DNA of 64,000 bases, taken from positions 1,796,001 through 1,860,000 of the forward strand of contig NZ_CP075190.1 of NCBI RefSeq assembly GCF_020510585.1. The letters are read 5' to 3'. Below, piece after piece: positions 7,116 to 35,130 of the stretch. This DNA comes from Ferribacterium limneticum. Its GTDB lineage: Bacteria > Pseudomonadota > Gammaproteobacteria > Burkholderiales > Rhodocyclaceae. The notes under the pieces were generated by a model that saw only the letters and a list, made by a program, of their open reading frames with translations, did no database searches and was not told the DNA's origin. Positions within the stretch are counted from its first letter, which is position 1, and every line of letters begins with the position of its first letter. The translations under genes were made by a program, and so were the position numbers.

Positions 7116-7131
7116 TGTTCGCCAACGCACA
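7116..7131 (-). promoter_or_regulatory. Putative CRP/FNR-type operator, site 1
   Basis: TGTTCGCCAACGCACA, one copy of the 16-bp near-palindrome shared by several promoters in this window. Its centre lies 29.5 bp from a weak leftward -10 candidate (CACCAT, 7094-7089), placing it near -41.5 for the CHRD-osmC unit. The assignment rests on recurrence and spacing only. Confidence 0.5.
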
Positions 7132-7153
7132 CAGCCTCAATTCCCGTTGTCTA

Positions 7154-7169
7154 TGTTGGCTGGCGCACT
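7154..7169 (+). promoter_or_regulatory. Putative CRP/FNR-type operator, site 2
   Basis: TGTTGGCTGGCGCACT, second copy in the same divergent region, 38 bp centre to centre from site 1. A rightward -10 candidate (CATAGT, 7191-7196) begins 29.5 bp from the site centre, which would put the site at -41.5 of a promoter reading into the small ORF, cbpA, cbpM and onward. Confidence 0.5.
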
Positions 7170-7238
7170 GAATTGTTTTCATTCGGACTGCATAGTCGTC
7201 GTGGCAGCACAGGGCTGCCCTGGTATTGGAGGTCGCAG

Positions 7239-7424
7239 ATGAATGACGAAATAGAACACGAACACCTCAAACCCACTCGCCACCTCGCCACACAAGCGGG
7301 GTGTTGTCATTGGACGCCGATCGTTCCCGGCTCGGCCGATGCGCCGGCTGGGGCCAGGGAAGAAACGGTGACGCCAAACCCGGTGGAATCCGCTGCGCCT
7401 TCTGGCGAGAAAAAGCCGGATTGA
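7239..7424 (+). CDS. Small hypothetical protein upstream of cbpA
   Basis: 61 residues from the ATG at 7239, preceded by GGAGGT at a good distance (7229-7233). It is polar and Pro/Glu/His-rich, with a CC pair (AGCCHW) and no signal or membrane segment. It ends 13 bases before cbpA and follows regulatory site 2, so it could be the first gene of the cbpA transcript. No family recognised. The strong ribosome-binding site is the main support; it may be a poorly conserved leader ORF. Confidence 0.45.
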   Translation: MNDEIEHEHLKPTRHLATQAGCCHWTPIVPGSADAPAGAREETVTPNPVESAAPSGEKKPD

Positions 7425-7437
7425 GCGAATCCATCTG

Positions 7438-8385
7438 ATGGAATTCAAGGATTACTACAAGATCATGGGGGTGGCGCGCGACGCGACCCAGGACGAGATC
7501 AAGCGCGCCTATCGGCAACTGGCGCGCAAATACCATCCGGACGTCAGCAAGGATCCGGCGGCCGAGGCGCGTTTCAAGGAACTCGGCGAGGCCAACGCGG
7601 TGCTCAAGGATATCGAAAAGCGTGCCGCCTACGACCGGTTGGGCGCCAACTGGCAGGCCGGGCAGGATTTCCGGCCGCCGCCGGACTGGAATGCCGGTTT
7701 CGAGTTTTCCGGCGATGGCGGGAACGGCAAGGGCGCCGAGGATTTCAGCGATTTTTTCGAATCCCTGTATGGCCATGGTTTTGCCGGTACAAGCCGGGGC
7801 CAGCGAGAGTTTCATGCCCGCGGCGAGGACCGGCACGCCCAGGTCATGATCGATCTGGCCGACGCCTACAGCGGTGCGACCCGGATCATCACGCTCCGTA
7901 CGCCCGAGGTGGATGCCAACGGCCGGGTGACGATGCGCTCGCATCAGCTCAATGTCACCATTCCGCGCGGCGTTCGGGCCGGGCAGCACATTCGTCTGGC
8001 CGGGCAGGGCGCACCGGGCATCGGGCAGGGCAAGGCCGGCGATCTCTATCTCGAGGTGGCGTTCAATCCGCACGCCCATTTCCGGGTCGAGCAGCGCGAT
8101 GTCTTTCTCGATTTGCCGCTGGCGCCATGGGAAGCGGCGCTGGGGGCGACGGTCAGCGTGCCGATCCCAAACGCTATGGTCGACCTGAAAATTCCGCCAA
8201 ATTCGAAATCCGGCAGCAAGCTGCGGCTCAAGGGCAAAGGCATTCCGGGCAACACGCCGGGCGACTTCTACGTTGTCTTGCAGGTGGTTTTGCCGACGGC
8301 TGACAGCGACGCCGACCGGGCTTTCTACGCCAGCATGGCCGAGCAGTTCAAATCCTTCAAACCGTGGTCCAGACTGGGAGCATAA
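7438..8385 (+). CDS. cbpA: Curved DNA-binding protein CbpA, DnaJ-type co-chaperone
   Basis: 315 residues. The J domain (residues 1-70) carries the HPD triad in KYHPDVSKD; a Gly/Phe-type linker follows (about 75-120), then two DnaJ C-terminal beta domains (about 130-305). There is no Cys-rich zinc domain, which marks it as CbpA rather than DnaJ. CbpA stimulates DnaK and binds curved DNA in the nucleoid, mostly in stationary phase in E. coli. The next gene encodes its modulator CbpM two bases downstream. Confidence 0.93.
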   Translation: MEFKDYYKIMGVARDATQDEIKRAYRQLARKYHPDVSKDPAAEARFKELGEANAVLKDIEKRAAYDRLGANWQAGQDFRPPPDWNAGFEFSGDGGNGKGAEDFSDFFESLYGHGFAGTSRGQREFHARGEDRHAQVMIDLADAYSGATRIITLRTPEVDANGRVTMRSHQLNVTIPRGVRAGQHIRLAGQGAPGIGQGKAGDLYLEVAFNPHAHFRVEQRDVFLDLPLAPWEAALGATVSVPIPNAMVDLKIPPNSKSGSKLRLKGKGIPGNTPGDFYVVLQVVLPTADSDADRAFYASMAEQFKSFKPWSRLGA

Positions 8386-8387
8386 GC

Positions 8388-8702
8388 ATGGACAAGATGC
8401 TGCCGCAACCGAGCGCCATCATTCTCGAAGAGCAGACCGACCTGACCATCAGCGAAGTCTGCCAAGCCTGTGCCGTGCGGGTTGAAACCATTGTCGAACT
8501 GGTCGACGAAGGCGTGTTGTCACCCATTGGCCGCGAGCCGCACCGCTGGCGTTTCACCGGCACCCACCTGCGGCGTGCCACGGTCGCCATCCGCCTGCAA
8601 CGCGATCTCGGCGTCAATCTGGCCGGCGCCGCGCTGGCCCTGCAACTGCTCGACGAACTCGATGCCCTGCAAGCCCGGCTTCAGGCGATGGGCAGGAATT
8701 GA
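8388..8702 (+). CDS. cbpM: Chaperone modulator CbpM
   Basis: 104 residues starting at ATG 8388, with GGGAG just upstream inside the end of cbpA. It has a MerR-like helix-turn-helix N-terminal fold (LTISEVCQACAVRVETIVELVDEGVLSP) followed by a helical C-terminus. CbpM binds the J domain of CbpA and blocks its activity. The cbpA-cbpM pairing is the usual arrangement and supports both calls. Confidence 0.88.
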   Translation: MDKMLPQPSAIILEEQTDLTISEVCQACAVRVETIVELVDEGVLSPIGREPHRWRFTGTHLRRATVAIRLQRDLGVNLAGAALALQLLDELDALQARLQAMGRN

Positions 8703-8747
8703 CTGGCTTGGCGCTGGGCGGGAAATACTTTAACGAGGATTCAAATC

Positions 8748-9296
8748 ATGGAATGGCGAAATACGAACGAGCGGTATGGCTTGTTATCCATCGGACTGCA
8801 TTGGTTGATGTTGCTGCAACTTGTCGCGGTCTATGCCTGCATCGATCTGCGAGAGTTCTTTCCCAAAGGCAGCGATCTGCGCGAGGCCCTGAAATTCTGG
8901 CACTTCAGTTTGGGTCTCTCGGTATTCCTGGTGGTCTGGATTCGCCTTGTTGCCCATATAACGGGGCCAGTACCCCGCGTCGTGCCAGCCTCGCCGGCCT
9001 GGCAAAGCGTGCCGGGCAAGCTGGTGCATGTCGCGCTCTACGGGCTGATGATCGCCTTGCCGGTGCTGGGCTGGCTGATACTGAGTGCCGAAGGCAAGGC
9101 TATCCCGTTTTTCGGCTGGCAACTGCCGGCACTGGTTGCTGAAGACAAAGGACTGGCTGACTGGAGCAAGGTACTTCATGAAACCGGCGGGACGATCGGG
9201 TATTTCGTCATCGGCCTGCACGCTCTGGCTGCCCTGTTTCATCATTATGTCCAGCGGGACAACACGCTGCGCCGCATGTTGCCGACGCGTCCATGA
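8748..9296 (+). CDS. Cytochrome b561
   Basis: 182 residues with four predicted membrane helices, a family-typical size. Likely haem ligand histidines occur in GLHWLM (helix 1), FWHFSLG (helix 2), and [11 protein letters not shown] (helix 4). Family members move electrons across the inner membrane, often oxidising ubiquinol or dealing with superoxide. It lies 45 bases after cbpM and 19 bases before the phosphoketolase gene, in the same direction, so probably shares their transcript. Confidence 0.88.
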
Positions 9297-9315
9297 CTCA
9301 ATCAAGGAAAATGCC

Positions 9316-11685
9316 ATGACCTCGACTGCTACGCCTCTCGCCGCCGACGAACTCGACCAGATGAACGCCTGGTGGCGCGCCGCCAACTACCTGTCGGTCG
9401 GCCAGATCTACCTGCTCGATAACCCGCTGCTCAAAACTCCGCTCAGCCTGGCCAACATCAAGCCGCGCCTGCTCGGCCACTGGGGTACGACGCCGGGTTT
9501 GAACTTCATCTACGTGCACATGAACCGGGCGATCAAGCAGTACGACCTCGACATGATCTTCATCGCCGGCCCCGGCCACGGTGGCCCCGGAGTGGTGGCG
9601 AATACCTGGCTGGAGGGTAGCTACAGCGAGTTTTACCAGGATATCTCGCAGGACGAAGAGGGCATCCGCCGGCTGTTCAAGCAGTTTTCCTTCCCCGGCG
9701 GCATTCCCAGCCACGCCTCGCCGGACACGCCGGGATCAATCCACGAAGGCGGCGAACTGGGTTACGCGCTGTTCCATGCCTACGGCGCCGTGTTCGACAA
9801 TCCGCACCTGATCACCTGCTGCGTCGTCGGCGACGGCGAGGCGGAGACCGGGCCGCTGGCGACCTCCTGGCATTCGAATAAATTCCTCAATCCGCGCACC
9901 GATGGCGCCGTGCTGCCCATTCTCCACCTCAACGGCTACAAGATCGCCAACCCGACCATCCTGGCCCGGATCAGCCACAGCGAGCTGGAATGCCTGTTCG
10001 TCGGCTACGGCTACCAGCCCATTTTCGTCGAGGGTGACGACCCGGAAACCATGCACCAGTTGATGGCGGCTGCGGTCGACACGGCCATTGCCAGCATTGC
10101 CGCCATCCAGCGCAAGGCGCGCGAAGGCGGCGATGAGAGCCGTCCGCGCTGGCCGATGATCATCCTGCGTTCGCCGAAAGGGTGGACCGGGCCGAAAACG
10201 GTCGATGGCAAGCAGAGCGAAGGCTCCTGGCGTTCGCATCAGGTGCCGTTCAGCGACATGGACAAGCCGGAACACGTGCAATTGCTGGGCGAATGGATGG
10301 CCTCCTACAAGCCGGCCGAACTGTTCGATAACGGTGGCCGGCTGATGCCCGAGATCGCCGCGTTGGCCCCCCTCGGCCAGCGGCGCATGGGTGCCAACCT
10401 GCACGCCAATGGTGGCGCCCTGTTGCGCGACCTGCGTCTGCCCGATTATCGCGACTACGCCGTGGCGGTGCCGACGCCGGGTGGTTCGGTGGCCGAGGCG
10501 ACGCGCGCCATGGGCGTTTTCCTGCGCGACGTGATGCGCCAGAACCCCGACAACTTCCGCGTCTTCGGGCCGGATGAAACTGCTTCCAACCGTCTCGGTG
10601 CCTTGTTCGAGGTCACCAACCGCAGCTGGATGGCCGAACATCTGGCCGGCGACGACCATCTGGCGCCCGATGGCCGGGTCATGGAAGTGCTGTCCGAACA
10701 CGCCTGCCAGGGCTGGCTCGAAGGCTACCTGCTGACCGGCCGGCACGGCCTGTTCTCGTGCTACGAAGCCTTTATCCACATCGTCGATTCGATGTTCAAT
10801 CAGCACGCCAAGTGGCTCAAGATGTGTGGCGAGATTCCCTGGCGGCGGCCGATTGCCTCGCTCAACATCCTGCTCACCTCGCACGTCTGGCGCCAGGATC
10901 ACAACGGCTTTTCGCACCAGGATCCGGGCTTCATCGACCACGTGGTGAACAAGAAGGCCGACATCATCCGCGTCTATCTGCCGCCCGATGCCAACACGCT
11001 GCTCTACGTCACCGACCGCTGCCTGAAGAGCCGCAACCTGGTCAATGTCATCGTCGCCGGCAAGCAGCCGGACTGGCAGTGGCTGGACATGGAAGCCGCA
11101 ATCAACCACGCCAGCGCCGGCATCGGTCTCTGGGAATGGGCCTGCAACGACCAGCCGGGCGAGCCGGATATTGTGCTGGCGTCGGCCGGCGACGTGCCGA
11201 CACTCGAAATGCTCGCCGCCATCGACATCCTGCACAGACTGGCGCCAAGCTTGAAAATTCGCTTCATCAACGTCGTCGACCTGATGACCCTGCAACCGCA
11301 GGAAGAGCACCCGCATGGCCTGTCGAGCGACGAATTCGACTCGCTGTTTACGGCCGACAAGCCGATCATCTTCGCCTACCACGGCTATCCGTGGCTGATC
11401 CACCGGCTGACTTACCGGCGGACCAACCACGCCCGGCTGCACGTCCGCGGCTACAAGGAGGAGGGCACGACGACGACGCCGTTCGACATGGTCGTCCTCA
11501 ACACCCTTGACCGTTTTCATCTGGTCATGGATGTGGCCAGTCGCGTACCCAAGCTGCAGGCGCAGGCGGCGCACATCAAGCAGGCGATGCGCGACAAGCT
11601 CAACGAGCACGCGCAATACATCCTCGAACACGGCGAAGACATGCCGGAAATCCTCGAATGGCAATGGTCGGGAGCAAAGTCATGA
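9316..11685 (+). CDS. xfp: Xylulose-5-phosphate/fructose-6-phosphate phosphoketolase
   Basis: 789 residues from ATG 9316 (the frame is open upstream into the cytochrome gene). A thiamine-diphosphate enzyme that splits xylulose 5-phosphate or fructose 6-phosphate with inorganic phosphate to acetyl phosphate plus an aldose phosphate. Both family signatures are present: [10 protein letters not shown] and [19 protein letters not shown], the latter being the TPP and Mg site. The stop overlaps the transaldolase start (ATGA). Together with Gnd and Zwf encoded 5 kb away it could form a phosphoketolase shunt yielding acetyl phosphate. Confidence 0.95.
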
Positions 11686-12794
11686 GCCAGAATCCGCTAC
11701 TTGAACTCAAGGCCATCGGCCAGCACATCTGGCTCGACAACCTGTCGCGCACTCTGCTCCGCGAGGGTGGCCTGCAGCGCCTGATCAACGAGGACGGCAT
11801 TGATGGCGTGACCTCGAATCCATCCATTTTCGAGAAAGCCATCGCCAACGGGACCTATTACCGTGAGGATCTGGAACGCCTGCGCGGTGCCGGACTCGAT
11901 GCCGAGGCCTGTTACGAATCGCTGGTCATCGCCGACATCCGGGCGGCCTGCGCCATGTTGCTGCCGGCTTTTCGGGAGAGTCGGGGAGAAGCCGGTTACG
12001 TCAGCCTTGAGGTGTCGCCAGCGCTGGCCGACGATACGATAGGCACCGTCGCCGCGGCGCGCCGTCTGCTGCAACAGGTCGGCCTGGACAACGTCCTGAT
12101 CAAAGTGCCGGCCACTCCTTCCGGAATTGAGGCTTTTTCCCGGTTGACCGCAGAAGGTGTGTCGGTCAACGTCACCCTGATCTTTTCGCTGGCCCAGTAC
12201 GAGGCCGTGGTCCAGGCCTATCTGCGCGGGGCATTGCGCTGGCTGGAAAGCGGCGGCCAAGCCCGGCATTTGCGCTCGGTGGCCAGCGTCTTCCTGAGTC
12301 GCGTCGATACCGCGGTCGATAAACGTCTCGATGCCCTGGGGACGATGCATGCCGCACGGCTCAGCGGGCGATCCGGTGTCGCCCTGGCCAAATGCTGCCA
12401 TGGCCGCTACCGGGATATTTTTCATGGACCTGATTTCGCCCTGCTGCGCTTGGCCGGCATACGGCCGCAAACGCCGCTGTGGGCGAGCACCGGCAGCAAG
12501 AATCTGGCGTACAGCGACGTGCTTTATGTCGAACCGCTGATCGGTCCGGAAAGCATCAATACGCTACCCGACGCCACGCTGGCCGCTTTCCGGAAACATG
12601 GCCAGGTCGCCAATAAATTGAAGGAAGGTCTGGACGAAGCGCAGATTCACGTTCAGGCGCTGATGGAGCTGGGCATCGATCTCGATGCCGTTGGCCATAG
12701 TCTGCAGGTAGACGGGGTGCTGCTGTTTGCCGAGGCTTATCAGAAGATATTGCGCGGTCTAAAGGCAGAAAACCTGACCCGAACGGGGCACTGA
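11682..12794 (+). CDS. tal: Transaldolase
   Basis: 370 residues from ATG 11682, overlapping the xfp stop. It transfers dihydroxyacetone units between sugar phosphates in the non-oxidative pentose phosphate branch. The N-terminal [14 protein letters not shown], the Schiff-base lysine in [12 protein letters not shown], and [15 protein letters not shown] match the long (about 370 residue) bacterial transaldolase class. Translational coupling to phosphoketolase suggests joint production: both enzymes use fructose 6-phosphate or pentose phosphates. Confidence 0.93.
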
Positions 12795-12804: not shown

Positions 12805-13536
12805 TTAGACTTCCGTCAGCTTGAGGAGGATGTCGGCGTACCAGGCGCCGTTCAGGCCCAATGCCTCGTCCTCGATCAGATCGCGATTGCCGACATCGAA
12901 GCGGGACGAATGAATGCCGAGCAGCATCCATGGCAGATCGCCGTGGGCCGGCGTGGTCTGGGCAATGCGCATGACGACTGGCGCGCCGCTGCTGCCGCGA
13001 TGGGTGCGCGCATCGGTCAGAAAAAATCCTTCGCCCTGAAAGCGCATCCCGAATGCCGAGGCGATGATGGCGTGGCGGACCACCGGCGTGTGGTGCAGGG
13101 CATCATGAAAGCCGAGCGGGAAGCCGACGATGAGCAATGATGAGCCGACTTCGACGCGGTCCAGACTGGTCAACAGGTGGCGCGGGCTGAAGGCACGAAA
13201 GACCGCCGTCTTGGGCAGGGCCTTGCGGTTGATCTCGATGACAGCGACGTCAATGTCACCAGCTGCGTCCAGGCCCTCGCGCCAGAGGCTGTTGCCATCG
13301 CGGTAGAGGGGAATGGAAAAGCCCGTCGATTCGGCGATATTCGCCTCATTGGTGTGCAATTCAATCTCGATCCGGGTTGGGAAATGCTTGCTTTTCTTGT
13401 CGAACACCACGTGGCGACTGGTCACCAGATAAAGACGCTCGTCGCGCCGGAAGAAAAACCCGCTGGCGTTGGTCAGCAAGGTTTTCTCATTGAAAGTCGA
13501 GATACGGGCGGCGGCAAGCAATATCGGTTCGATCAT
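12805..13536 (-). CDS. Trypsin-like serine protease
   Basis: 243 residues. A chymotrypsin-fold protease with His42 (VTSRHVV), an Asp in GDIDVAVIEI (94 or 96) and Ser183 in HRGSSGAPVV; the residue before the active Ser is Ser rather than the usual Asp. No signal peptide or PDZ domain is visible, so it may be cytoplasmic or exported by an unknown route. Monocistronic, ending 10 bases from the convergent tal gene. A -10-like TATATG (13570-13565) and a half-matching regulatory site lie upstream. Substrate unknown. Confidence 0.8.
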   Translation of the reverse strand: MIEPILLAAARISTFNEKTLLTNASGFFFRRDERLYLVTSRHVVFDKKSKHFPTRIEIELHTNEANIAESTGFSIPLYRDGNSLWREGLDAAGDIDVAVIEINRKALPKTAVFRAFSPRHLLTSLDRVEVGSSLLIVGFPLGFHDALHHTPVVRHAIIASAFGMRFQGEGFFLTDARTHRGSSGAPVVMRIAQTTPAHGDLPWMLLGIHSSRFDVGNRDLIEDEALGLNGAWYADILLKLTEV

Positions 13537-13607: not shown

Positions 13608-13663
13608 CTCGTGCCTAAACACTTGGCAGCCACCTTCAGTGTAGCCCATGCAAGCCTCGCCTA

Positions 13664-13679
13664 TGTGCGCCAGCGAACG
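13664..13679 (+). promoter_or_regulatory. Putative CRP/FNR-type operator, site 4
   Basis: TGTGCGCCAGCGAACG, a close match to the shared near-palindrome. A -10 candidate TAAGCT (13701-13706) starts 29.5 bp downstream of the centre, so the site would be at -41.5 relative to a start near 13713, reading into the SYLF gene. Confidence 0.55.
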
Positions 13680-13807
13680 GTATCGGGACGGCCATGCTCC
13701 TAAGCTCAAGTATTGATTCATGGGGCATGCCCGAGAGATAACTGGGCCGTGCGCCTCGGTATCGATTGCTTCATTTCCAATCAACTCAATACGGACAGGA
13801 CAAGATC

Positions 13808-14371
13808 ATGACTACCAGACGCCACGTTTTGAAAAACCTTCTTCTCATCACTGCCACCGCTTTTTCCATGGGTACATTGAGTAGCCAGGCGATGGCTGCC
13901 AGCGCGGAAGATCTTGACAAAGACGCCGCCCAGGCCCTGCAATCGCTCTACAAGAGCAACCCGGTGGCCGAAAGCCTTGCCAAGAAGGCCAAAGGCATCC
14001 TCGTCTTCCCCAAAATTCTCAAAGCCGGCCTGGTCTTCGGTGGTAGCTATGGCGAAGGTGTGCTGACCAAGAGCGGCAAGCAGTCCGGCTACTACAACTC
14101 GGTGTCGGCCTCCTGGGGCTGGCAAGCCGGTGCTGAATCGTACGGCTACGTTGTCTTCCTGATGAGCGACAAGGCCGTCAAGTACCTCGATCAGTCCAAG
14201 GGCTGGGAATTCGGTGTCGGCCCAAGCGTCGTCGTCGTCAATGAAGGTGTCGCCAAGAACCTGTCGACTTCGACGCTCAAAGACGACGCCTATGCCTTCA
14301 TCTTCGACCAGCAGGGCCTGATGGCCAGTTTGAGTATCGAAGGCACCAAGATCAGCCGCATCAAGCGCTGA
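13808..14371 (+). CDS. Exported SYLF-domain (YSC84-type) lipid-binding protein
   Basis: 187 residues from ATG 13808; an earlier in-frame start at 13766 lacks a ribosome site and would disturb the signal sequence. The N-terminus TTRRHVLKNLLLITATAFS resembles a twin-arginine signal ending at QAMA-AS. The rest is one SYLF domain (AKGILVFPKILKAGLVFGGSYGEG onward), a fold that binds phospholipids in eukaryotes and occurs in many proteobacterial periplasmic proteins. Regulatory site 4 precedes it. Exact role unknown; probably envelope stress. Confidence 0.87.
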   Translation: MTTRRHVLKNLLLITATAFSMGTLSSQAMAASAEDLDKDAAQALQSLYKSNPVAESLAKKAKGILVFPKILKAGLVFGGSYGEGVLTKSGKQSGYYNSVSASWGWQAGAESYGYVVFLMSDKAVKYLDQSKGWEFGVGPSVVVVNEGVAKNLSTSTLKDDAYAFIFDQQGLMASLSIEGTKISRIKR

Positions 14372-17282: not shown

Positions 17283-17702
17283 TTATTTGGCCGACGTGAC
17301 GACGAGTTGGTTGGTGACATCCCGGACGCCGCCGATCGCCATTGCGCGGGCCTTGGCCTTGTCGCTGTTGGCTTTCGAATCGACCGTGCCGGTCAGGGTG
17401 ACGACACCCTTGACGGTGTCGACACTGATTTGCAGCGACTTCAGGCCGGGTTCGCCGAGAAGTTCGGCTTTGACCTTGGCGGTGATTTCGGTGTCATCGA
17501 AAGCCTGAGCGCTTTTGGCGCCTTGTTCGGTCATCTTGTTCTCTAGCTTGTCTACGGTCTCGCCGACCTTCTTGCCGGTGTCGCTGGCCGCCTGGTCCAT
17601 TTTCTTGCCGGCCTGTTCGGCCGGTCCGGGCTTGTCGCAAGCGCTCAGCCCGATGGCCAGGAGCAGCGAAATGGCGATGAAGGTGGTTTTGCTTTGCATC
17701 AT
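17283..17702 (-). CDS. BON-domain lipoprotein
   Basis: 139 residues (or 138 if the second ATG is used). The lipobox LSAC at about residue 22 marks an envelope lipoprotein. A helical linker (about 30-65) precedes one BON domain (about 68-138: DTEITAKVKAELLGEPGLKSLQISVDTVKGVVTLTG). BON domains, as in OsmY, are thought to bind phospholipid membranes in osmotic stress. It lies 31 bases after the DUF3309 gene, same direction. Confidence 0.87.
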   Translation of the reverse strand: MMQSKTTFIAISLLLAIGLSACDKPGPAEQAGKKMDQAASDTGKKVGETVDKLENKMTEQGAKSAQAFDDTEITAKVKAELLGEPGLKSLQISVDTVKGVVTLTGTVDSKANSDKAKARAMAIGGVRDVTNQLVVTSAK

Positions 17703-17733
17703 GTGGTGATTTCTCCAGTGTGGTGGTGCAGTT

Positions 17734-17892
17734 CTAGATTTTGCCGAGCACGAGCAGGACGAGCAGGATCAGCAGGAGCAGTCCGATGCCACCGCTCGGT
17801 GCGTAACCCCAGCCCCGGCTGTGCGGCCAGCTTGGAATGGCGCCGATCAATAACAGGACCAGAACGATTAGCAGAATGGTTCCCAGAGACAT
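17734..17892 (-). CDS. DUF3309-family small membrane protein
   Basis: 52 residues, found by reading the sequence. AGGAG lies upstream of the ATG at 17892. Two hydrophobic helices (SLGTILLIVLVLLLIGAIP and IGLLLLILLVLLVLGKI) flank a loop with SWPHSRGWGYAPSGG, the DUF3309 signature. It is the first gene of the leftward three-gene transcript and lies downstream of regulatory site 5. Function unknown; the family is commonly stress-induced. Confidence 0.82.
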   Translation of the reverse strand: MSLGTILLIVLVLLLIGAIPSWPHSRGWGYAPSGGIGLLLLILLVLLVLGKI

Positions 17893-17969
17893 TTCTTTTC
17901 TCCTAAAAATTGCAGGGCATCAACAGTCAATGCCGTACTGATCATGTTACGGAGGCCATGACAAAGTTC

Positions 17970-17985
17970 TGTTCGCCAGCGCACA
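17970..17985. promoter_or_regulatory. Putative CRP/FNR-type operator, site 5 (best copy)
   Basis: TGTTCGCCAGCGCACA, the most symmetrical copy of the shared motif, lying between the divergent DUF3309 and DUF883 genes. A rightward -10 candidate (CAGTAT, 18007-18012) sits 29.5 bp from its centre; leftward, CATGAT (17946-17941) is about two bases further. One site could serve both directions. Confidence 0.55.
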
Positions 17986-18374: not shown

Positions 18375-18413
18375 TTTTTCATCGACCAACCAAACATCAG
18401 TCAGGAGCCACCC

Positions 18414-21845: not shown

Positions 21846-21848
21846 TTT

Positions 21849-24800: not shown

Positions 24801-27800
24801 GGTGCCTGGCTGGTGCTCGCCAGTCAGGAAGAAATGCTCATTGCCACGCCGGTCCTCCTGCTCTGGCTGAGCTCGCCGCTCATCGCCTGGTGGCTGAGTC
24901 GCCCGCTGGCTGCCCACAAGGCCCACCTGACGGCCGAGCAGGGCTTCTTCCTGCGCCGCATCGCCCGGCGCACCTGGGCCTTTTTCGACCATTTCGCCGG
25001 GCCGGACGACAACTGGCTGGCACCGGACAATTATCAGGAATACCGGGTCGCCGCCATCGCCCACCGTACCTCGCCGACCAATATGGGCCTGGCCCTGCTG
25101 GCCAACCTGGGCGCCTGGGATTTTGGTTACATCACCACCGGCAGGCTGCTCGAGCGGACCGCCAACACGCTGCGCACCATGGTCGGCCTGGAGCGTTATC
25201 GCGGCCATTTCTACAACTGGTACGACACGCAGACCCTGCAACCGCTGCCGCTGCTTTACGTGTCGACGGTCGACAGCGGCAACCTGGCCGGCCATCTGCT
25301 GACCCTGCGCGGTGGCCTGCTCGAACTGGCCGACGCGCCGATATTGCAGCCACGCTTGCTGGCCGGCCTCAACGACACGCTCGGCCTGCTCGCCGAGAGC
25401 GCCGAAGAAGCCGTCGCCGGAACGCTGGGCGCCTGGCGCAAGCTGCTCGATACGGCGATGCTGAATCCGCCGCCGACCATTTCGGCCATGGCTCGACTAC
25501 TCCGGCAACTCGGCGAGGGCGCCGACGAATTGCTCAGCGAGGTTGAAGCCAGCTTTGTCGTGGTCGATGAAAGCATTCCGGAAAACGAGGCCGCCGAATG
25601 GGCCCGGGCACTCGTTCGGCAACTGGCCGAAGCGCGGGCCGAACTGGAACATCTCGCCCCCTGGCTGAGCCTGCCGCCTGCCCCGGCCGGGCTCGAGGTT
25701 TTTGCCCGGATCGCCAACGAGGCCGCCTTGCCGACCCTGCGCGGCCTGGCTCGACTGGTCACTGAGCGTTGCCCGGATATCGAGACGCATCTGGCGATGG
25801 AGTTGAGCGCCGAACAACGCAGCTGGCTGATCGAGCTATCCCGCAAGATTGTGCTGGCCGGCAATGTGGCGAGCCAAAGAATCGCCCTGATCGACGCACT
25901 CGCCGAGCAATCCGGCGAACTGGCGCAGATGGATTACGACTTCCTGTTCGACAAGGCGCGCCACCTTTTGACCATCGGCTACAACGTCGCCGAACGCCGG
26001 GTCGATACCAGCTACTACGACCTGCTCGCCTCCGAAGCCCGGCTGTGTAACTTCGTCGCCATCGCCCAGGGGCAGTTGCCGCAGGAAAGCTGGTTCTCGC
26101 TCGGTCGCCTGCTCACCGGCACCGGCGGCGAACCGGCGCTGCTGTCGTGGAGCGGCTCGATGTTCGAGTACCTGATGCCGATGCTGGTCATGCCCAATTA
26201 CGAAAACACCTTGCTCGACCAGACCTGCAAGGCCGCCGTGGCGCGGCAGATCGAGTACGGCAAGCAGCGCGGCGTGCCGTGGGGCGTTTCCGAATCGGGC
26301 TACAACACGGTCGATCTGCATCTCAACTATCAGTACCGTGCCTTTGGCGTGCCGGGACTGGGCCTCAAGCGCGGGCTGGCCGAAGATCTGGTCATCGCGC
26401 CCTATGCCTCGGCGCTGGCCCTGATGGTGGCGCCGGAAGCGGCCTGCCTCAACCTGCAGCGCATGGCCGACGAAGGTTTTGTCGGCAAATACGGCTTCTT
26501 CGAAGCCATCGATTACACGACTGCCCGCCAGCGGCGTGGCCAGTCGCATGTTGTCGTCCGTTCCTTCATGGCCCACCACCAGGGCATGAGCCTGCTGGCG
26601 CTGGATTACCTGCTGCTCAATCAGCCGATGCAGCGTCGCTTTGTCGCTGACCGCCTGTTCCAGGCCATCCTGCTCCTGCTTCAGGAGCGCATCCCCAAGG
26701 CCACGACGCTGTTCTCGCACACGGCCGAACTGGCCGACGCGCGTTCGGTTTCGAGCATCGACGAAACGCCGATCCGCGTCTTCACCACCCCGGATACGCT
26801 GGTTCCGGAAGTCCAGTTGCTGTCGAATGGCCGTTACCACGTCATGGTGACCAATGCCGGCGGCGGCTACAGCCGCTGGAACGATCTGGCCGTCACCCGC
26901 TGGCGTGAAGACGGCACCCGCGACAACTGGGGCAGCTTCTGCTACATCCGCGAACTGGCCAGCGGCAGCGTGTGGTCGACGGCTTATCAGCCGACGCTCA
27001 AACGGCCGGATCATTACGAGGCGATCTTCTCCGAAGGACGCGCCGAATTCCGCCGGCGTGATTCGCTCGACGGCGACGATGGCGAGTTCGAGACCTACAC
27101 CGACATCGTCGTCTCGCCCGAGGACGACATCGAACTCCGGCGGACCCGCATCACCAACCGCTCACGCCAGCGCCGCGAGATCGAAGTGACGAGCTATGCC
27201 GAGGCGGTCATCGCGCCGGCGGCGGCCGACGAGCTGCACCCGGCCTTCAGCAACCTGTTTGTGCAGACGGAAATCCTGCACAGGCGCAATGCCGTGCTGT
27301 GCACCCGGCGGCCGCGTTCGCTGACCGAACAGGCGCCGTGGATGCTGCACCTGATGGCCGTGCATGACGCGGCTTCAGGTGCCGTTTCCTACGAAACCGA
27401 TCGCGCCCGCTTCATCGGCCGCACCCGTTCCACGGCCCAGCCGCAGGCCATGGTCGAACCCGGCAAATTGTCCGGCACCCATGGCTCCGTGCTCGACCCC
27501 ATCGTCGCCATCCGCCATCGCATCGTGCTCGAACCCGAGCAATCGGTGACCATCGATGTGGTGACCGGCATTACCGAAAACCGCGCCCTGGCGCTCGGCC
27601 TGGTCGAGAAATACCAGGACCGGCACCTCGCCGACCGCGTCTTCGAACTGACCTGGACGCACAGCCAGGTCGTCCTGCGCCAGCTCAACGCCAGCGAGGC
27701 CGATGCCCAGCTTTACGCCCGCCTGGCCAGCTCGGTCATCCATGCCAACGCCTCGCTGCGGGCCGATGCCTCGGTACTCATGCGCAACCAGCGCGGCCAG

Positions 27801-30656
27801 TCCGGCCTCTGGGGCTACGCCATTTCCGGCGACCTGCCGATCGTCCTGCTGCAGATCGGCGACGCGGCCAATATCGATCTCGTCCGCCAGCTGGTCCAGG
27901 CTCACGCCTACTGGCGCCTCAAAGGGCTGGTCGTCGATCTGGTGATCTGGAACGAGGACCACGCCGGCTATCGCCAGCGGCTGCAGGATCAGATCATGGG
28001 ACTGATCGCCTCGGGCATCGAAGCCAGCGTCATCGATAAGCCGGGCGGCATTTTCGTGCGGCTGGCCGAACAGATTTCGAGCGAGGACCGCATCCTGCTG
28101 CAATCGGTGGCGCGCGCCGTGATCAACGATTGTCGCGGCTCGCTGGCCGAACAGCTCGACCTGCGCAGCCCGCCCGAATCGCGCGTGCCGCGTCTGGTCG
28201 CCAGTCGGCGCTATCGTCCGGAAGCGCCGCCGGCCGCGACGGTGAGCGGCCTTGACCTGCAGTTTTACAACGGCCTCGGCGGCTTTGCCGGCGATGGCCG
28301 GGAATATGTCATCACGCTGGCCGCCGGCCACACCACGCCGGCGCCGTGGGCCAATGTGCTGGCCAATCCGCAGTTCGGCACGGTGATTTCGGAAAGCGGC
28401 AGCGCCTACACCTGGAGCGACAACGCCCACGAATTCCGCCTGACGCCGTGGCATAACGACCCGGTCAGCGATGGTGGCGGCGAAGCCATCTACCTGCGCG
28501 ACGAGGAAACCGGCCACGTCTGGTCGCCGACGCCCTTGCCGGTCCGCGGTGCCATGCCTTACGTGGTCCGCCACGGTTTTGGCGTGACCAGCTTTGAAAC
28601 CTCGGTCGGCGGCATACGCTCCGAACTCAAGGTCTATGTCGCCATCGACGCGCCGGTCAAATTCTCGATTTTAAAATTGGCCAATATTTCCGGTCGACCG
28701 CGGAAGATCTCGGCGACCGGCTATGTCGAGTGGGTGCTCGGTGATTTGCGGGCCAAAACGGCCATGCATGTCACCACCGAGATCGCCACCGGCAGCGGCG
28801 CGCTGCTGGCGCGCAATCCCTACAGCCCCGAGTTTTCGGGACGCGTCGCCTTCTTCGATGTCGATGAAGTGAGCCGCACGCTGACCGGCGACCGCAACGA
28901 ATTCATCGGCCGCAACGGTTCGCTGGGTGAGCCATCGGCGCTCAAACGGGCCCGCCTTTCCGGCAAGGTCGGCGCCGGGCTGGACCCCTGCGGCGCCATC
29001 CAGATGGCGGTTGAACTGGCCGACGGCGAGGAACGCGAGCTCATCTTCCGCCTCGGCGTCGGGCACAGCAGCGACGAAGCCAACCATTTGATTCAGCGCT
29101 TCCGTGGCTCGCTGGCGGGGCGCATGGCGCTCGAAGCGGTCGAGCTGTACTGGACGCAGTCGCTCGGCGCCGTTCAGGTCGAAACGCCCGACCCGGCGCT
29201 TGATGTGCTGGCCAATGGCTGGCTCGTCTATCAGACGCTGGCCTGCCGGATCTGGGCGCGCAGCGGCTATTACCAGTCGGGCGGCGCCTTCGGCTTCCGC
29301 GACCAGTTGCAGGACATGATGGCGCTGGTTCATACCGAGCCGGGGCTGGTCCGCGAACATCTGCTGCTCTGTGCCGGCCGCCAGTTTGCCGAGGGCGACG
29401 TCCAGCACTGGTGGCACCCGCCGGCTGGGCGCGGCGTTCGCACCCGCTGTTCGGACGACTACCTGTGGCTGCCGCTGGCCGTCTGCCGCTATGTGCAGAC
29501 CACCGCCGACACTGGCGTGCTCGATGAACGCAGCAATTTCCTCGAAGGCCGCCCGGTCAATCCCGAAGACGACTCCTACTACGACCTGCCGGTTCGCTCG
29601 GGCGAGGTGGCCAGCCTGTACGAACACTGCGTGCGTGCCATCCGCCATGGCCTGCGTTTCGGTGCGCACGGCCTGCCGCTGATCGGCTCCGGCGACTGGA
29701 ACGACGGCATGAGCCGGGTCGGCATTCTGGGCAAGGGCGAAAGCGTCTGGCTCGCCTTCTTCCTCCATGACGTGCTCAGGCAGTTCAGCAGTGTGGCGAC
29801 AATTCATGGCGATCCGGCCTTTGCCGAATTCTGTCAGGGCGAAGCCGCCCGACTGCACCAGAACATCGAGGAGCAGGGCTGGGATGGCGCCTGGTATCGT
29901 CGCGCCTATTTCGACGACGGCACGCCGCTCGGCTCCAGCACCAGTCCGGAATGCCGGATCGACTCGATCTCGCAGAGCTGGGCGGTGCTCTCCGGCGTAG
30001 CCAATGCGGCGCGCGGGCAGATGGCCATGCAGGCCGTAGACGAACACCTCGTACGTCGGCAGGCCAGGCTGATCCAGTTGCTCGACCCACCTTTCAACAA
30101 ATCCCAGCTTGATCCCGGCTACATCCGCGGCTACGTCCCGGGCGTGCGCGAAAACGGCGGCCAATACACCCACGGTGCGATCTGGGCGGCGATGGCCTTT
30201 GCCAGCCTTGGCGACAGGGAACGGGCCTGGGAACTGACCGCGATGATCAATCCGGTCAACCACGCGCGCTCGGAAACTGCCGTCGCCACCTACAAGGCCG
30301 AGCCGTACGTGATGGCCGCCGACGTCTATGCGCTGGCTCCGCATACCGGTCGTGGCGGCTGGACCTGGTATTCCGGCTCGGCCGGCTGGATGTACCGGCT
30401 GCTCGTCGAATCGCTGCTTGGTCTGCGGCTGGATGGCACCAAATTGCACCTGTCGCCCTGTCTGCCGGCGGATTGGCCGGGATTCAAGATGCGCTACCGC
30501 TATCGGGCGACGATCTTTCACATTACCGTGCAGCAGATGCCGGCCGGTCCGGAATTAACCGGGAACACCTTTGTTGTCGACGGCGTTGAGCAAACCGAAC
30601 GGGCGATTTCCCTGGTCGATGACCTGGCTGAACATCAGGTCGTGATCAGGCTTTAG
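21849..30656 (+). CDS. ndvB: Cyclic beta-1,2-glucan synthase
   Basis: About 2935 residues, the NdvB/ChvB size. It makes cyclic beta-1,2-glucans from UDP-glucose and moves them to the periplasm for osmotic adaptation. Order: N-terminal region, membrane helices (about 420-480), GT84 glycosyltransferase with LDTDTQLPRDTARQF (about residue 650), further helices (about 830-1010), glucoamylase-like region, and tandem GH94 phosphorylase-like domains with GDWNDGMSRVG near residue 2615. ATG 21849 has no ribosome site and lies directly after a terminator; TTG 21867 has GGAAGG upstream and may be the true start. Two dispersed-repeat copies lie inside the gene; one seems to add residues. Confidence 0.92.
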   Translation: MGRRFDLKSSQSVFEYFRQLARGFGDSDWSAAQPVEEAPLRAALYSADQMAQHGKALAAAHRLAAGTVSDRLLGRLAANENTLVDVCRRLTSVATEKRRITPAGEWLLDNFYLIEEQIRTAKRHLPKGYSRELPRLASGPSAGHPRVYDIALETVAHGDGRVDPETLSRFVAAYQTVTDLRLGELWAIPIMLRLAVIENLRRVGVRIAAGWEERNLAEVWADKMIEAAEHDPKNLILTIADMARSQPPMVSAFVAELARRLQGRGPALALPLTWIEQHLAESGLTIAQMVQTENQLQAANQVSISNSIGSLRVIGAMDWKTFVETQSIVEQTLLNDPGGVYGQMDFATRDRYRHATEAIARKTDLSEGALAAKVVELARMGAQGDEGGPVGHVGFYLVGAGVLVLEASVEVRQTFFESVGRAASRMPLTIYLGGVTVIAGLLSTSLIMRAIPVGLPLWAMILLGLLALLATSQLAVSLVNWLASLLVPPHPLPKMDFSKGIPPSSRTLVVIPTMLTSVAAIDSLIEALEVRFLANRDPSLHFALLTDFLDADQETLPEDAALMQLAAQKIDELNLKFGQKIGLTVASIFFLFHRPRRWNPQERVWMGYERKRGKLADLNALLMNGRRDGFSLIAGDTTALAGTRYVITLDTDTQLPRDTARQFVGTMAHPLNRPDFDETLQRVVSGYGILQPRVAVSLPGTNRSLLARLYGGEPGIDPYTRAVSDVYQDVFGEGSFIGKGIYDIEAFERTLGGCFPENRVLSHDLLEGCYARAGLLSDVQLFEDCPASYRADVIRRHRWLRGDWQLLGWLFRTVPGEGMCRHKNPLSNLSQWKLIDNLRRSLVPAALSVLLVLGWTVLAPVAWWTVSILGILVVPPIFAALLDASRKPEEILLRQHLAAVAGSAWRHFRQLGFELACLPYEAWFSLDAIARTLWRLLVSHRRLLEWNPSSEVERQMAGRQRAHHSELLACLRSMWIGPLLAGGLGAWLVLASQEEMLIATPVLLLWLSSPLIAWWLSRPLAAHKAHLTAEQGFFLRRIARRTWAFFDHFAGPDDNWLAPDNYQEYRVAAIAHRTSPTNMGLALLANLGAWDFGYITTGRLLERTANTLRTMVGLERYRGHFYNWYDTQTLQPLPLLYVSTVDSGNLAGHLLTLRGGLLELADAPILQPRLLAGLNDTLGLLAESAEEAVAGTLGAWRKLLDTAMLNPPPTISAMARLLRQLGEGADELLSEVEASFVVVDESIPENEAAEWARALVRQLAEARAELEHLAPWLSLPPAPAGLEVFARIANEAALPTLRGLARLVTERCPDIETHLAMELSAEQRSWLIELSRKIVLAGNVASQRIALIDALAEQSGELAQMDYDFLFDKARHLLTIGYNVAERRVDTSYYDLLASEARLCNFVAIAQGQLPQESWFSLGRLLTGTGGEPALLSWSGSMFEYLMPMLVMPNYENTLLDQTCKAAVARQIEYGKQRGVPWGVSESGYNTVDLHLNYQYRAFGVPGLGLKRGLAEDLVIAPYASALALMVAPEAACLNLQRMADEGFVGKYGFFEAIDYTTARQRRGQSHVVVRSFMAHHQGMSLLALDYLLLNQPMQRRFVADRLFQAILLLLQERIPKATTLFSHTAELADARSVSSIDETPIRVFTTPDTLVPEVQLLSNGRYHVMVTNAGGGYSRWNDLAVTRWREDGTRDNWGSFCYIRELASGSVWSTAYQPTLKRPDHYEAIFSEGRAEFRRRDSLDGDDGEFETYTDIVVSPEDDIELRRTRITNRSRQRREIEVTSYAEAVIAPAAADELHPAFSNLFVQTEILHRRNAVLCTRRPRSLTEQAPWMLHLMAVHDAASGAVSYETDRARFIGRTRSTAQPQAMVEPGKLSGTHGSVLDPIVAIRHRIVLEPEQSVTIDVVTGITENRALALGLVEKYQDRHLADRVFELTWTHSQVVLRQLNASEADAQLYARLASSVIHANASLRADASVLMRNQRGQSGLWGYAISGDLPIVLLQIGDAANIDLVRQLVQAHAYWRLKGLVVDLVIWNEDHAGYRQRLQDQIMGLIASGIEASVIDKPGGIFVRLAEQISSEDRILLQSVARAVINDCRGSLAEQLDLRSPPESRVPRLVASRRYRPEAPPAATVSGLDLQFYNGLGGFAGDGREYVITLAAGHTTPAPWANVLANPQFGTVISESGSAYTWSDNAHEFRLTPWHNDPVSDGGGEAIYLRDEETGHVWSPTPLPVRGAMPYVVRHGFGVTSFETSVGGIRSELKVYVAIDAPVKFSILKLANISGRPRKISATGYVEWVLGDLRAKTAMHVTTEIATGSGALLARNPYSPEFSGRVAFFDVDEVSRTLTGDRNEFIGRNGSLGEPSALKRARLSGKVGAGLDPCGAIQMAVELADGEERELIFRLGVGHSSDEANHLIQRFRGSLAGRMALEAVELYWTQSLGAVQVETPDPALDVLANGWLVYQTLACRIWARSGYYQSGGAFGFRDQLQDMMALVHTEPGLVREHLLLCAGRQFAEGDVQHWWHPPAGRGVRTRCSDDYLWLPLAVCRYVQTTADTGVLDERSNFLEGRPVNPEDDSYYDLPVRSGEVASLYEHCVRAIRHGLRFGAHGLPLIGSGDWNDGMSRVGILGKGESVWLAFFLHDVLRQFSSVATIHGDPAFAEFCQGEAARLHQNIEEQGWDGAWYRRAYFDDGTPLGSSTSPECRIDSISQSWAVLSGVANAARGQMAMQAVDEHLVRRQARLIQLLDPPFNKSQLDPGYIRGYVPGVRENGGQYTHGAIWAAMAFASLGDRERAWELTAMINPVNHARSETAVATYKAEPYVMAADVYALAPHTGRGGWTWYSGSAGWMYRLLVESLLGLRLDGTKLHLSPCLPADWPGFKMRYRYRATIFHITVQQMPAGPELTGNTFVVDGVEQTERAISLVDDLAEHQVVIRL
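23570..23610 (+). repeat. Dispersed ~40-bp repeat, copy D (inside ndvB)
   Basis: A 36-base segment matching copy A at 27 positions, including GGGTTGACCGTAGC. It encodes the LKFGQKIGLTVAS region, where other NdvB proteins, as I remember them, have a shorter linker before the FFLFHRPRRWNP motif. This suggests an in-frame insertion of the repeat. Confidence 0.5.
28668..28704 (+). repeat. Dispersed ~40-bp repeat, copy C (inside ndvB)
   Basis: Matches copy A at 32 of 36 positions without gaps. It encodes ILKLANISGRPRK using TTA, AAA and TTG codons that are rare in this GC-rich gene, while the protein stays collinear with the family as far as I can judge. Confidence 0.6.
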
Positions 30657-33269: not shown

Positions 33270-33276
33270 TGCCGGA

Positions 33277-33597
33277 TCATACCCCCCAGACAACCGGCTC
33301 GCCGGCTTTTACGGCGCGTTCGAGCATTTCACTGAAGGGCGCGGCGCGTTGGGAGAGGCTAACCGGCGGCTCGTCGTCTGCTTCCGTTTCATTCTGGCTG
33401 GAGGCTGTTTCCTGCGACCTGGCCTTGTCGGCCACGATGGCATTTTGCAGCGTCGCGATGGCCTCGGGCAACTGTTCGACGGTGATGATTCCACGTGCGT
33501 CTTCCGGGCTTTTGCCGAGCAGGGCAAGAATTTCCTTGCCGCTCTTTTCGTGCATGATCAGGTCGGCGTTGGTGGCTGATTTGAAGGTAAAAAGCAT
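33277..33597 (-). CDS. DUF1840 protein
   Basis: 106 residues from ATG 33597. It matches the DUF1840 pattern: MLFTFKSATNADLIMHEKSGKEILALLGK at the start, RGIITVEQLPEAIATLQNAI in the middle, and VSLSQRAAPFSEMLERAVKAGEPVVWGV at the end. Soluble, function unknown. It is sandwiched between the CRP-PAS gene (5 bases upstream) and the CheB/CheR gene (7 bases downstream), so the three form a probable operon. Confidence 0.85.
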   Translation of the reverse strand: MLFTFKSATNADLIMHEKSGKEILALLGKSPEDARGIITVEQLPEAIATLQNAIVADKARSQETASSQNETEADDEPPVSLSQRAAPFSEMLERAVKAGEPVVWGV

Positions 33598-33602
33598 GGT
33601 GA

Positions 33603-34928
33603 TTATTCCTTTGTGGCTATGTCGTCGCTGTCGCTGACGCGACGCGATAGGTGCATGGTGCTCGTCGCGTTGCCGGAGGTGTCGATGACGACCATGCGGC
33701 ATTCGCGCGCCTCGGCATCGGGAACGGCCTCGATCCGGATGTTCGTTACCGGGCGATGGGCATTGGCGGCGAGCACGGATTCGCAATGCAGCTTTTTGCT
33801 CGAATGGAGTACTTCGTCGACAAAGCGATTGAATTTCTCGGCATGATTGGCTTCCAGGAAGGCTGCAAAGCGATGCCGGCCTTTCTGGGAACCCTTGGTG
33901 CCGAGCAACACGGCGCCGGCCAGATTCATGTCGATAATGACGCCGAGCGGATCGAGCGTTATATAGCCGACCGGCGCGAAGTCGTAGATGTCGGCGTACC
34001 GTTCGCGCAAATTGTCGGCTTCTTCATAGGCGTGGCGGAGCTCTTCATTGCTCATTTCAAGTTCGATCTGATGCACCTGCAATTCGTGCACCAGTTGGGC
34101 GTTGTCCCAGGCTGTTTTCGGCTCCGGATGCGGCGATTGCAGCAAGCGGGCCTCGGCACGATGGCGTACGTTGGCCGGATTGGGGCGAGGGCGGCTGGCG
34201 CCCCGAACATCGGATTGCAGGCGGAATATCCGGTCATATTCACTTTTGACGGCGGCGTAGCATTCGCATGCCCGGGCCTCCAGGCCGGGGCGGTCGAGCA
34301 CCGTGATATGGCCACGGCTGTATTCGATCAGACCGGCGGCCTGCAGCTTTCCGGCGGCTTCGGTGATCGCTTCACGCCGCACGCCGAGCATGTTGGCAAT
34401 GAGTTCCTGCGTCATGTTCAGCTGGTTGCCGGGGAGCAGGTCGAGGCTGAACAGGAGCCAGCGGCACAACTGCTGTTCGACGGCGTGGAATCGGTTGCAG
34501 ACGATGCTTTGCGCCATCTGGGTCATCAGGGCCTGGGTGTAGCGCAGCGCCAGGTGCTGCAACTCGCCGCCCTGGTCGAGTTCCCAGCGGACGACTTCGA
34601 CCTTGAGCCGGTAGGCGGCGCCGGCGCTCTGCACGACCACCCGGTGCGTCGTCGTGTCACCACCCAGGACCAGCGGAATGCCGACCAGTCCATCGTTACC
34701 GGTAATGGCCAGCTCTGCCGTGCCGCCTTTTTTTGTGGTGAAGATCAGCGAGACGATGCAGGTAATCGGAAAGTAAATGTAGCCGAGCGTATCGCCGGAT
34801 TCATATAGAACCTGGCCCAGTTCGAGATGGACAAGATCAAGGTCATCTTGCAGGCGTGAGTATTCATTGGTGGCCAGTGAGCCAAGAATGCGGTTTTGCT
34901 TGGGGCTGTATATCAATTCGGATGGCAT
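33603..34928 (-). CDS. CRP/FNR-family regulator fused to a PAS domain
   Basis: 441 residues. A cyclic-nucleotide-binding-like beta-roll (about 20-140), dimerisation helix, then a CRP-type winged helix (about 165-225: TQELIANMLGVRREAITEAAGKLQAAGLIEYSRG), a linker, a coiled coil (about 275-310) and a C-terminal PAS domain (about 310-425). The recognition helix keeps Arg-Glu as in CRP (Arg180, Glu181) but has Glu in place of CRP Arg185. No FNR-type Cys cluster is seen. The PAS fusion is unusual. Regulatory site 6 lies in its upstream region. Confidence 0.85.
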   Translation of the reverse strand: MPSELIYSPKQNRILGSLATNEYSRLQDDLDLVHLELGQVLYESGDTLGYIYFPITCIVSLIFTTKKGGTAELAITGNDGLVGIPLVLGGDTTTHRVVVQSAGAAYRLKVEVVRWELDQGGELQHLALRYTQALMTQMAQSIVCNRFHAVEQQLCRWLLFSLDLLPGNQLNMTQELIANMLGVRREAITEAAGKLQAAGLIEYSRGHITVLDRPGLEARACECYAAVKSEYDRIFRLQSDVRGASRPRPNPANVRHRAEARLLQSPHPEPKTAWDNAQLVHELQVHQIELEMSNEELRHAYEEADNLRERYADIYDFAPVGYITLDPLGVIIDMNLAGAVLLGTKGSQKGRHRFAAFLEANHAEKFNRFVDEVLHSSKKLHCESVLAANAHRPVTNIRIEAVPDAEARECRMVVIDTSGNATSTMHLSRRVSDSDDIATKE

Positions 34929-35114
34929 GGCGCCTCCATTTTTTATCCGCCGGGGACTTCTCGGAAATTTGACGACACAGCTTGCTGGTGCCGATCGGTG
35001 TCAGGGGCTTTTGGTATTTCCTCTAACTTGCGGCCGGCTGCATTAGCACCGGTCATTTATCATTTATAAAATCCCTAACCAACTTGCATGATACAGAACA
35101 AAACAAAAACGATA

Positions 35115-35130
35115 TGTGCGCTCGCCAACA
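35115..35130 (+). promoter_or_regulatory. Putative CRP/FNR-type operator, site 6
   Basis: TGTGCGCTCGCCAACA, between the divergent CRP-PAS gene and a small Lys-rich ORF. The -10 candidate TAGCCT (35152-35157) gives a start near 35164, with the site centred at -41.5. Its position next to the regulator gene suggests autoregulation or a direct target. Confidence 0.5.

Follow-up and report, generated by a model that had tools for sequence, protein, structure and literature searches.

A recurrent 20-bp palindrome as the probable operator of a CRP-PAS regulator of stress and carbon genes in Ferribacterium limneticum

In the 64,000-nucleotide stretch of Ferribacterium limneticum DNA shown here (the window; G000:C1:1796001-1860000, on a 4.42-Mb chromosome), a CRP-like dyad recurs in front of genes for stress, envelope and carbon functions. 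Are these repeats operators, and, if so, which protein reads them? The original prediction, made from the letters of the window, had proposed a shared operator and its regulon but had named no regulator; the regulator gene is probably encoded in the window as well. We propose, with a probability of about 0.82, that the repeats would be the operators of an autoregulated CRP-like class II activator, the CRP-PAS protein P0001 (33603-34928, minus strand), and that its signal would be something other than cyclic AMP (cAMP).

The window by itself is not proof of an operator: 5 places lie within two mismatches of the pattern vs 2.40 expected, and a count of at least 5 turns up in 10 of 100 shuffled sequences. 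In the whole genome, however, 17 places lie within one mismatch vs 3 for the reversed pattern, and 106 within two vs 38. Our own gene calls place 11 of the 17 between genes and 6 within them, and 6 of the 17 fall within 1779221-1831130, a 52-kb segment that makes up 1.2% of the genome. Sites from other genomes speak the same way. Places with at most one mismatch to TGTDCGCNNGCGHACA, a widened form of the original pattern, were gathered from 89 loci in genomes other than this one, among them congeners, with sites of identical flanks counted once; 53 non-genic sites out of 56 then served to train a symmetrised 20-bp matrix (cut-off 14). Over 84 kb, the window plus 20 kb upstream, this foreign matrix finds 17 places scoring at least 14 (10 in the 20 kb preceding the window, 7 inside it) vs none for the reversed matrix. 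Although the coding fraction is 0.83, 16 of the 17 lie outside genes (p=1e-11); the one genic place in the 84 kb, at window position 6674, is probably a chance match, and the site cluster begins at least 16 kb upstream of the window. A home-genus matrix, built from 78 sites picked by the foreign matrix, finds 68 places scoring at least 16 in 741 kb at 42 more distant regulator loci, and its reversed form finds 0; such reversed-matrix controls, together with the class-wide test described below, guard only partly against circular site picking. Genic sites are few (3 of the 56 foreign sites, 1 of the 75 in the islands), as judged by gene calls from a codon-usage script that was trained on this genome and whose genic and intergenic labels are rough in distant AT-rich loci. 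The operator is real, and the genome-wide and foreign-matrix scans bear out both that several promoters share it and that its sites lie in promoter regions.

The full operator, as described by the symmetrised foreign matrix, is a 20-bp palindrome of approximately TMTGTDCGCYRGCGHACAKA. The dyad of the predicted 16-bp operator is thereby retained but its length is not, since outer TMT...AKA extends the matrix to 20 bp; likewise, the half-site TGTKCGC stands in its overall pattern, with position 4 widened to D (G, T or A) from G or T only. The fifth half-site base is C at 0.87 in the foreign matrix and 0.78 in the home-genus matrix. The recurring sites are two-fold symmetric in the manner of the operators, about 16 bp long, of CRP/FNR dimers, a likeness to be read with the matrix itself having been symmetrised, and the CRP-like character of the dyad is upheld. 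All of the coordinates first given for the sites proved correct. The operator at 17970..17985, between the DUF3309-BON genes (minus strand) and the DUF883-EncFtn-PAS/GGDEF/EAL genes (plus strand), matches TGTKCGCNNGCGMACA exactly and has a matrix score of 29.3. One mismatch is found in the operators at 7116..7131 (TCTGTTCGCCAACGCACACA with flanks; score 23.6), at 13664..13679 between the serine protease gene (minus) and the SYLF gene (plus; score 22.6), and at 35115..35130 between the CRP-PAS regulator gene (minus) and the Lys-rich peptide gene (plus; score 24.8); two are found in the operator at 7154..7169 (TATGTTGGCTGGCGCACTGA with flanks; score 20.5). No strand is assigned to any of the operators. 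Of two weaker sites proposed at the outset, the one at 21311..21326, upstream of the BON lipoprotein and cyclic beta-glucan synthase genes, holds with a score of 16.1, above the cut-off of 14, and the one at 13592 falls below it at 9.5 and finds no support. A perfect 20-bp palindrome, TATGTGCGCTAGCGCACATA, occurs elsewhere at L135:2427 (score 32.6), upstream of a 769-residue open frame of G014 that matches P0001 at 39%.

The spacing between sites and putative -10 boxes had been noticed post hoc, and that worry is eased by the foreign sites, where a TANNNT hexamer lies exactly 21 nt past the site in 23 of 106 strand views (53 sites). The next best offsets reach 3, and the maximum in 500 shuffles is 8. 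Four congeners show TANNNT at offset 21 in 33 of 138 strand views, and in the home set of 32 views it occurs at offset 20 in 4 and at 21 in 7, all other offsets from 8 to 34 having none. Were this hexamer the -10 box, the centre of the site would fall at -41.5, and the TANNNT spacing reproduces, statistically, the layout of a class II promoter with its centre at -41.5 and a -10 element. The divergent sites 7116, 13664, 17970 and 35115 carry [TC]ANNNT 20 or 21 nt out on both sides, a feature noticed after looking. On the plus strand, the predicted -10-like hexamers 21 nt past their sites are CATAGT (7191..7196, site 7154), TAAGCT (13701..13706, from site 13664 towards SYLF), CAGTAT (18007..18012, site 17970), TATTCT (21348..21353, site 21311) and TAGCCT (35152..35157, from site 35115 towards the Lys-rich peptide), and TATGTT (7152..7157) lies 20 nt past site 7116, towards cbpA-cbpM-cytb561-xfp-tal. 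Their predicted minus-strand counterparts are TACACT (13638..13643), 20 nt from site 13664 towards the serine protease, TAACAT (17944..17949), 20 nt from site 17970 on its other side, and TATCAT (35088..35093), 21 nt from site 35115 towards the regulator gene. This last hexamer is kept in loci L027, L028 and L029, before whose orthologues the position of site 35115 is also matched (in L031, with 2 mismatches), and the regulator gene is itself probably a target through that side of the site.

Sites are also kept at orthologous promoters in related genomes, as the proposal of an operator had called for. G002 is mostly colinear with the home genome G000. In G014, G026 and G027 the genes stand in a different order, and yet orthologous promoters retain the site, which counts for the operator. 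In all five genomes the regulator and DUF3309/DUF883 are preceded by sites. The CHRD/cbpA promoter has a site in G002 (25076) and G014 (37718), and CHRD has one in G026 as well; site 7154 is kept in G002. The SYLF orthologue is preceded by a site in G002 (32973) and G014 (13927), and the BON lipoprotein orthologue has stronger sites in G027 (25641) and G026 (15106) than the one at window position 21311. The same is seen for orthologues of phospholipase D (G002, G014 and G027) and phospholipase A1 (G026 and G027), and for that of flavin mononucleotide reductase (G002, with weaker homologues in G026 and G027).

The operator is most probably that of the CRP-PAS protein encoded in the cluster. The gene of P0001 (441 residues) lies within the site cluster, divergent to the Lys-rich peptide gene and preceded by site 35115. 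Pfam finds a cNMP-binding (cyclic nucleoside monophosphate-binding) fold, HTH_Crp_2 and then PAS, after which the protein ends; the scores of 28.7 bits for PF00027 (cut-off 27.5) and 56.1 bits for PF13545 (cut-off 27) place it in the CRP/FNR superfamily, and CRP/FNR chains of solved structure match the profile of its family from position 7 to 213. It is one of a larger group, HTH_Crp_2 having 15 matches in the genome, 12 of which exceed the family cut-off. Homologues were taken from 61 loci of named genomes (Azonexus, Dechloromonas, Thauera, Zoogloea, Pseudomonas, Halomonadaceae, Marinobacter, Rheinheimera and others); Dechloromonas hortensis (L038) and D. denitrificans (L043) each have one. 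In the 450 bp upstream of the regulator gene, a site with at most one mismatch is present at 10 of 57 loci (the 61 minus L030, L082, L083 and L085) and one with at most two mismatches at 22 of 57; the reversed pattern is found at 0 and 0.

What P0001 senses can be approached through its relatives. Cys144, His148, Cys221 and Cys223 are invariant in 64 sequences and Cys155 in 63, and a redox or metal signal acting via this Cys/His set is possible. The orthologues in G014, G026 and G027 have 847 residues (L122:3397-5940, L125:5087-7630 and L129:5087-7630, minus strand); in that of G014, Pfam finds HTH_Crp_2, PAS stretches and GGDEF, with PF00027 just under its cut-off at 26.8. An intact GGDEF motif is absent from all three of these proteins and is retained in the L040 orthologue (882 residues, from 10001). 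At six loci preselected for a nearby GGDEF match (L064, L067, L074, L075, L080 and L081), one end of an open frame with intact GGDEF lies no more than about 150 bp from where the regulator frame ends. These fusions and neighbours suggest a link to cyclic di-GMP.

Operator and regulator co-occur. Among 35 genomes of the same genus, the 7 with a close orthologue (at least 70% identity) have 6-16 pattern places (mean 10.4) vs 1-9 (mean 4.6) in the 28 without one, some of which have weaker homologues (p=1.3e-4). The places crowd on the regulator contig: 7 of 11 in G002, 7 of 12 in G014, 4 of 16 in G027 and 3 of 12 in G026, where this contig is only 17.8 kb long. In two of the six regulator-free congeners listed (G006 and G031), all 16 pattern matches score below 14. 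A class-wide sample of 276 evenly drawn genomes, 275 once the home genome was set aside, was searched with a tight pattern and for the protein: a tight site is present in 15 of 32 genomes with the regulator vs 7 of 243 without (p=3e-11), and 9 of those 15 have a site no more than 20 kb away from a regulator gene. As a negative control, 20 loci of a different CRP-type regulator (68.5 kb) hold 0 sites.

The recognition helix of P0001 is likewise compatible with the altered half-site. In an alignment with chain 4cyd (chains 4cyd and 4byy we take to be GlxR), the Arg-Glu pair is kept and the Lys near the end of the helix becomes Glu. In CRP, an Arg of the recognition helix reads the outer G; the retained Arg would fit the retained TG, just as the absence of the final Arg/Lys would fit the change from TGTGA to TGTDC. 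Of 66 homologues with the helix RRE[A/G/T]..[E/D], a few variants included, 56 have a site scoring at least 16 in their loci, and both homologues with RREGVTQ have a site. A first comparison set E/D against Q at the position of the GlxR Lys; p was 0.056 when upstream sites were counted and 7e-6 when any site was. A sharper split, on the residue that follows RRE, was noticed only afterwards and is confounded with phylogeny. The association of helix class with operator is a correlation, since the classes are also clades and the loci differ in length; some loci with two homologues are counted repeatedly. A sister class with RRES..TQ helices (L051, L052, L068, L070, L073, L085, L105, L106, L116 and L117) lacks the operator in its loci and probably reads another one.

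Several observations weigh against assigning the sites to P0001 as a class II activator. Only 33 of the 66 homologues with a fitting helix have a site (score at least 15) within 350 bp upstream, and the loci of 12 homologues with RRES helices (10 RRES..TQ, 2 RRES..E) have none. At the tight threshold, 17 of the 32 regulator genomes have no site and 7 genomes without the regulator have one (the reversed pattern gave a match in 5 genomes). Even the 28 congeners that lack a close orthologue have, on average, more places than the reversed pattern yields, an excess which indicates that this control is too low for coding DNA. Three non-genic sites of the home genome (12871, 13868 and 15433) lack a [TC]ANNNT 20-21 nt away on the side of the gene that they precede. 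Finally, at least three paralogues in the home genome have similar recognition helices, and any of them could share the sites or own them.

This last point leads to the alternative that survives best, although we regard it as unlikely: the sites may be bound by the paralogues 1240600, 2211380 and 2219779 instead of, or besides, P0001. Their helices read RRETVTE, LRREAITD or VRRPAISE, one of them has an upstream match scoring 15.4, and many genomes of the class that have the regulator hold 2-5 homologues. In the home genome, however, only the P0001 gene sits in the site cluster with a strong site upstream, and site numbers across the genus track the P0001 orthologues.

Rather improbable, in our judgement, is that the protein represses through these sites by covering the -35 region. 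The site does lie over the expected location of the -35 box, and autoregulation is common among repressors. Yet exact spacing is not something that a repressor requires, whereas class II activation does need the constant distance to a -10-like hexamer that is seen to either side of four divergent sites.

It is very unlikely that the sites belong instead to a 287-residue FtrB-like CRP-type protein (L007:3966-4829, minus strand), even though two sites, L007 4952 and 5165, with scores of 24.8 and 18.0, lie by its gene. Its homologues (at most 49% identical) occur in 10 of 10 congeners tested, with or without a close CRP-PAS orthologue; 20 homologue loci hold no site, with a best score of 7.8; and its helix reads LTQEHFSR, presumably of the FNR-like type. 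On this distribution, these site-free loci and this helix we reject it as the regulator, and its gene is more likely a target. In one genome, G050, a repeat array with 60-bp spacing (G050:C1:473954-477929) mimics the pattern in 28 of its 31 matches, and we dropped that high count as support because it is an artefact. That the recurrence as a whole is chance or a codon-driven GC-rich palindrome, to which this array and the modest count in the window might lend colour, is contradicted by the whole-genome, foreign-matrix, non-genic, cross-species, negative-control and class-wide co-occurrence results and can be dismissed.

Taking P0001 as the regulator, we can compare it with known systems. CRP is cAMP-dependent, recognizes TGTGA-N6-TCACA and acts in class II promoters from -41.5. 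P0001 shares with CRP and GlxR a CRP fold, as judged from its sequence, and the Arg-Glu that opens the recognition helix, and with CRP the dyad ends TGT...ACA and the position at -41.5; its half-site is TGTDCGC in place of TGTGA, so that TGTGA-N6-TCACA does not describe its operator. Close to the end of the helix it carries Glu in place of the Lys of GlxR, and the cassette residues of GlxR (GEL...PRTSSA), which include the cAMP contacts, are not kept in P0001, where the aligned sequence is GIALVLGGETTTSRA; judged by sequence, it would not be cAMP-dependent. FNR and DNR, regulators responding to oxygen and nitric oxide, belong to the same superfamily and share the class II placement, but they recognize a TTGAT half-site, which is not present here; P0001 has an Arg-Arg-Glu helix and, unlike FNR, no N-terminal cysteine cluster, its first Cys, Cys57, not being invariant. 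Among CRP-type proteins that bind cyclic di-GMP are the Xanthomonas protein, presumably Clp, and Bcam1349 of Burkholderia. P0001 resembles such proteins in a putative link to diguanylate cyclases, here through GGDEF domains fused in relatives or encoded next door. Further members that bind cyclic di-GMP are DPR-1 and DPR-2 of Cycloclasticus, proteins of 242 and 238 residues and effectors of the degradation of polycyclic aromatic hydrocarbons (PMC8547461); P0001, in contrast, ends after PAS. The main text of that article, searched for "consensus" and "TGT", yielded no DPR operator sequence. DgcY/HhmR of Halomonas was rejected as a match because HhmR is a LysR protein (PMC12421958), and nothing in the search results tied the Burkholderia lxa locus to the operator. 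By type, P0001 would be a CRP-like activator whose operator and attached sensor parts are new.

We propose that a dimer of P0001 would bind the 20-bp dyad approximating TMTGTDCGCYRGCGHACAKA. At about 41.5 bp upstream of the start the dyad would occupy the place of the -35 box, and this position points to class II activation; at divergent promoters one dimer may serve both directions. P0001 would turn on its own gene, together with those for BON, SYLF, DUF883, OsmC and CHRD proteins, cbpA, phosphoketolase, transaldolase and zwf/gnd/pgl, and also phospholipases and cyclic beta-glucan synthase.

The proposed regulon of stress, envelope and carbon genes is supported by the genes that follow the sites, named here, the Lys-rich peptide excepted, by Pfam unless stated otherwise. 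On the minus strand, the unit 646..7056, which may form one transcript, comprises CHRD (6604-7056), OsmC (6154-6504), an aldehyde dehydrogenase family protein (4318-5946), gnd (2804-4243), zwf (1344-2807) and pgl (646-1344). Divergent from it on the plus strand, and likewise presumably cotranscribed, are cbpA, a cbpM-like MerR gene, cytochrome b561, phosphoketolase and transaldolase (7438..12794; Pfam/NCBIfam). Further proposed targets are a trypsin-like serine protease (12805..13536, minus), a SYLF/Ysc84 protein (13892..14371, plus), DUF3309 (17734-17892) and a BON protein (17283-17702) in the minus-strand interval 17283..17892, the genes for DUF883, EncFtn-like and REC-PAS-GGDEF-EAL proteins (18096..21188, plus) and a Lys-rich peptide of 42 residues (35192..35320, plus). 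The plus-strand interval 21435..30656 carries the BON lipoprotein gene and, adjoining it at 21966-30656, that of a 2896-residue GH94 cyclic beta-glucan synthase-like protein, also proposed targets. Relatives of the GH94 protein occur in 13 of 43 more distant regulator loci, those of Pseudomonas and Halomonadaceae included. Just past the stress cluster, at 38740-39885, lies a gene for the radical SAM protein PqqE (NCBIfam TIGR02109).

Outside the cluster, intergenic sites lie upstream of genes for an alternative oxidase, a transglutaminase-like protein, an OmpA-type lipoprotein and DUF3616/peroxiredoxin (the peroxiredoxin label was given by eye), and probably also of a CsbD-like gene, again labelled by eye. 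Peroxiredoxin, alternative oxidase and the CsbD-like protein thus probably belong to the regulon. L002:5462, among the best genomic sites (25.3), faces on its minus side a 139-residue Ala-rich protein (34 Ala), and TATATT stands at the -10 place.

Public sequence collections contain at least 8000 homologues of the regulator (E 1e-40), and the 120 homologues listed bear only generic names; neither the operator nor the regulon was found in the open-access PMC literature among the matches listed. More speculatively, this CRP subfamily may serve many Gammaproteobacteria, in the broad GTDB sense, as a general activator of stress and envelope genes that senses through PAS, an active or degenerate GGDEF and the Cys/His set (C144, H148, C155, C221 and C223); redox or second-messenger state would then be coupled directly to the TMTGTDCGCYRGCGHACAKA regulon by a single polypeptide or by adjacent genes. 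We hold this idea only tentatively; if true, a transcription factor would here be running something roughly comparable to the RpoS response. More broadly, the pairing of an orphan operator with a CRP subfamily would make the regulon predictable in many Beta- and Gammaproteobacteria and would offer a natural case of altered CRP specificity. Through P0001, the unnamed stress families BON, SYLF, DUF883, DUF3309 and DUF1328 would gain a control point, as would phosphoketolase and cyclic glucan synthesis.

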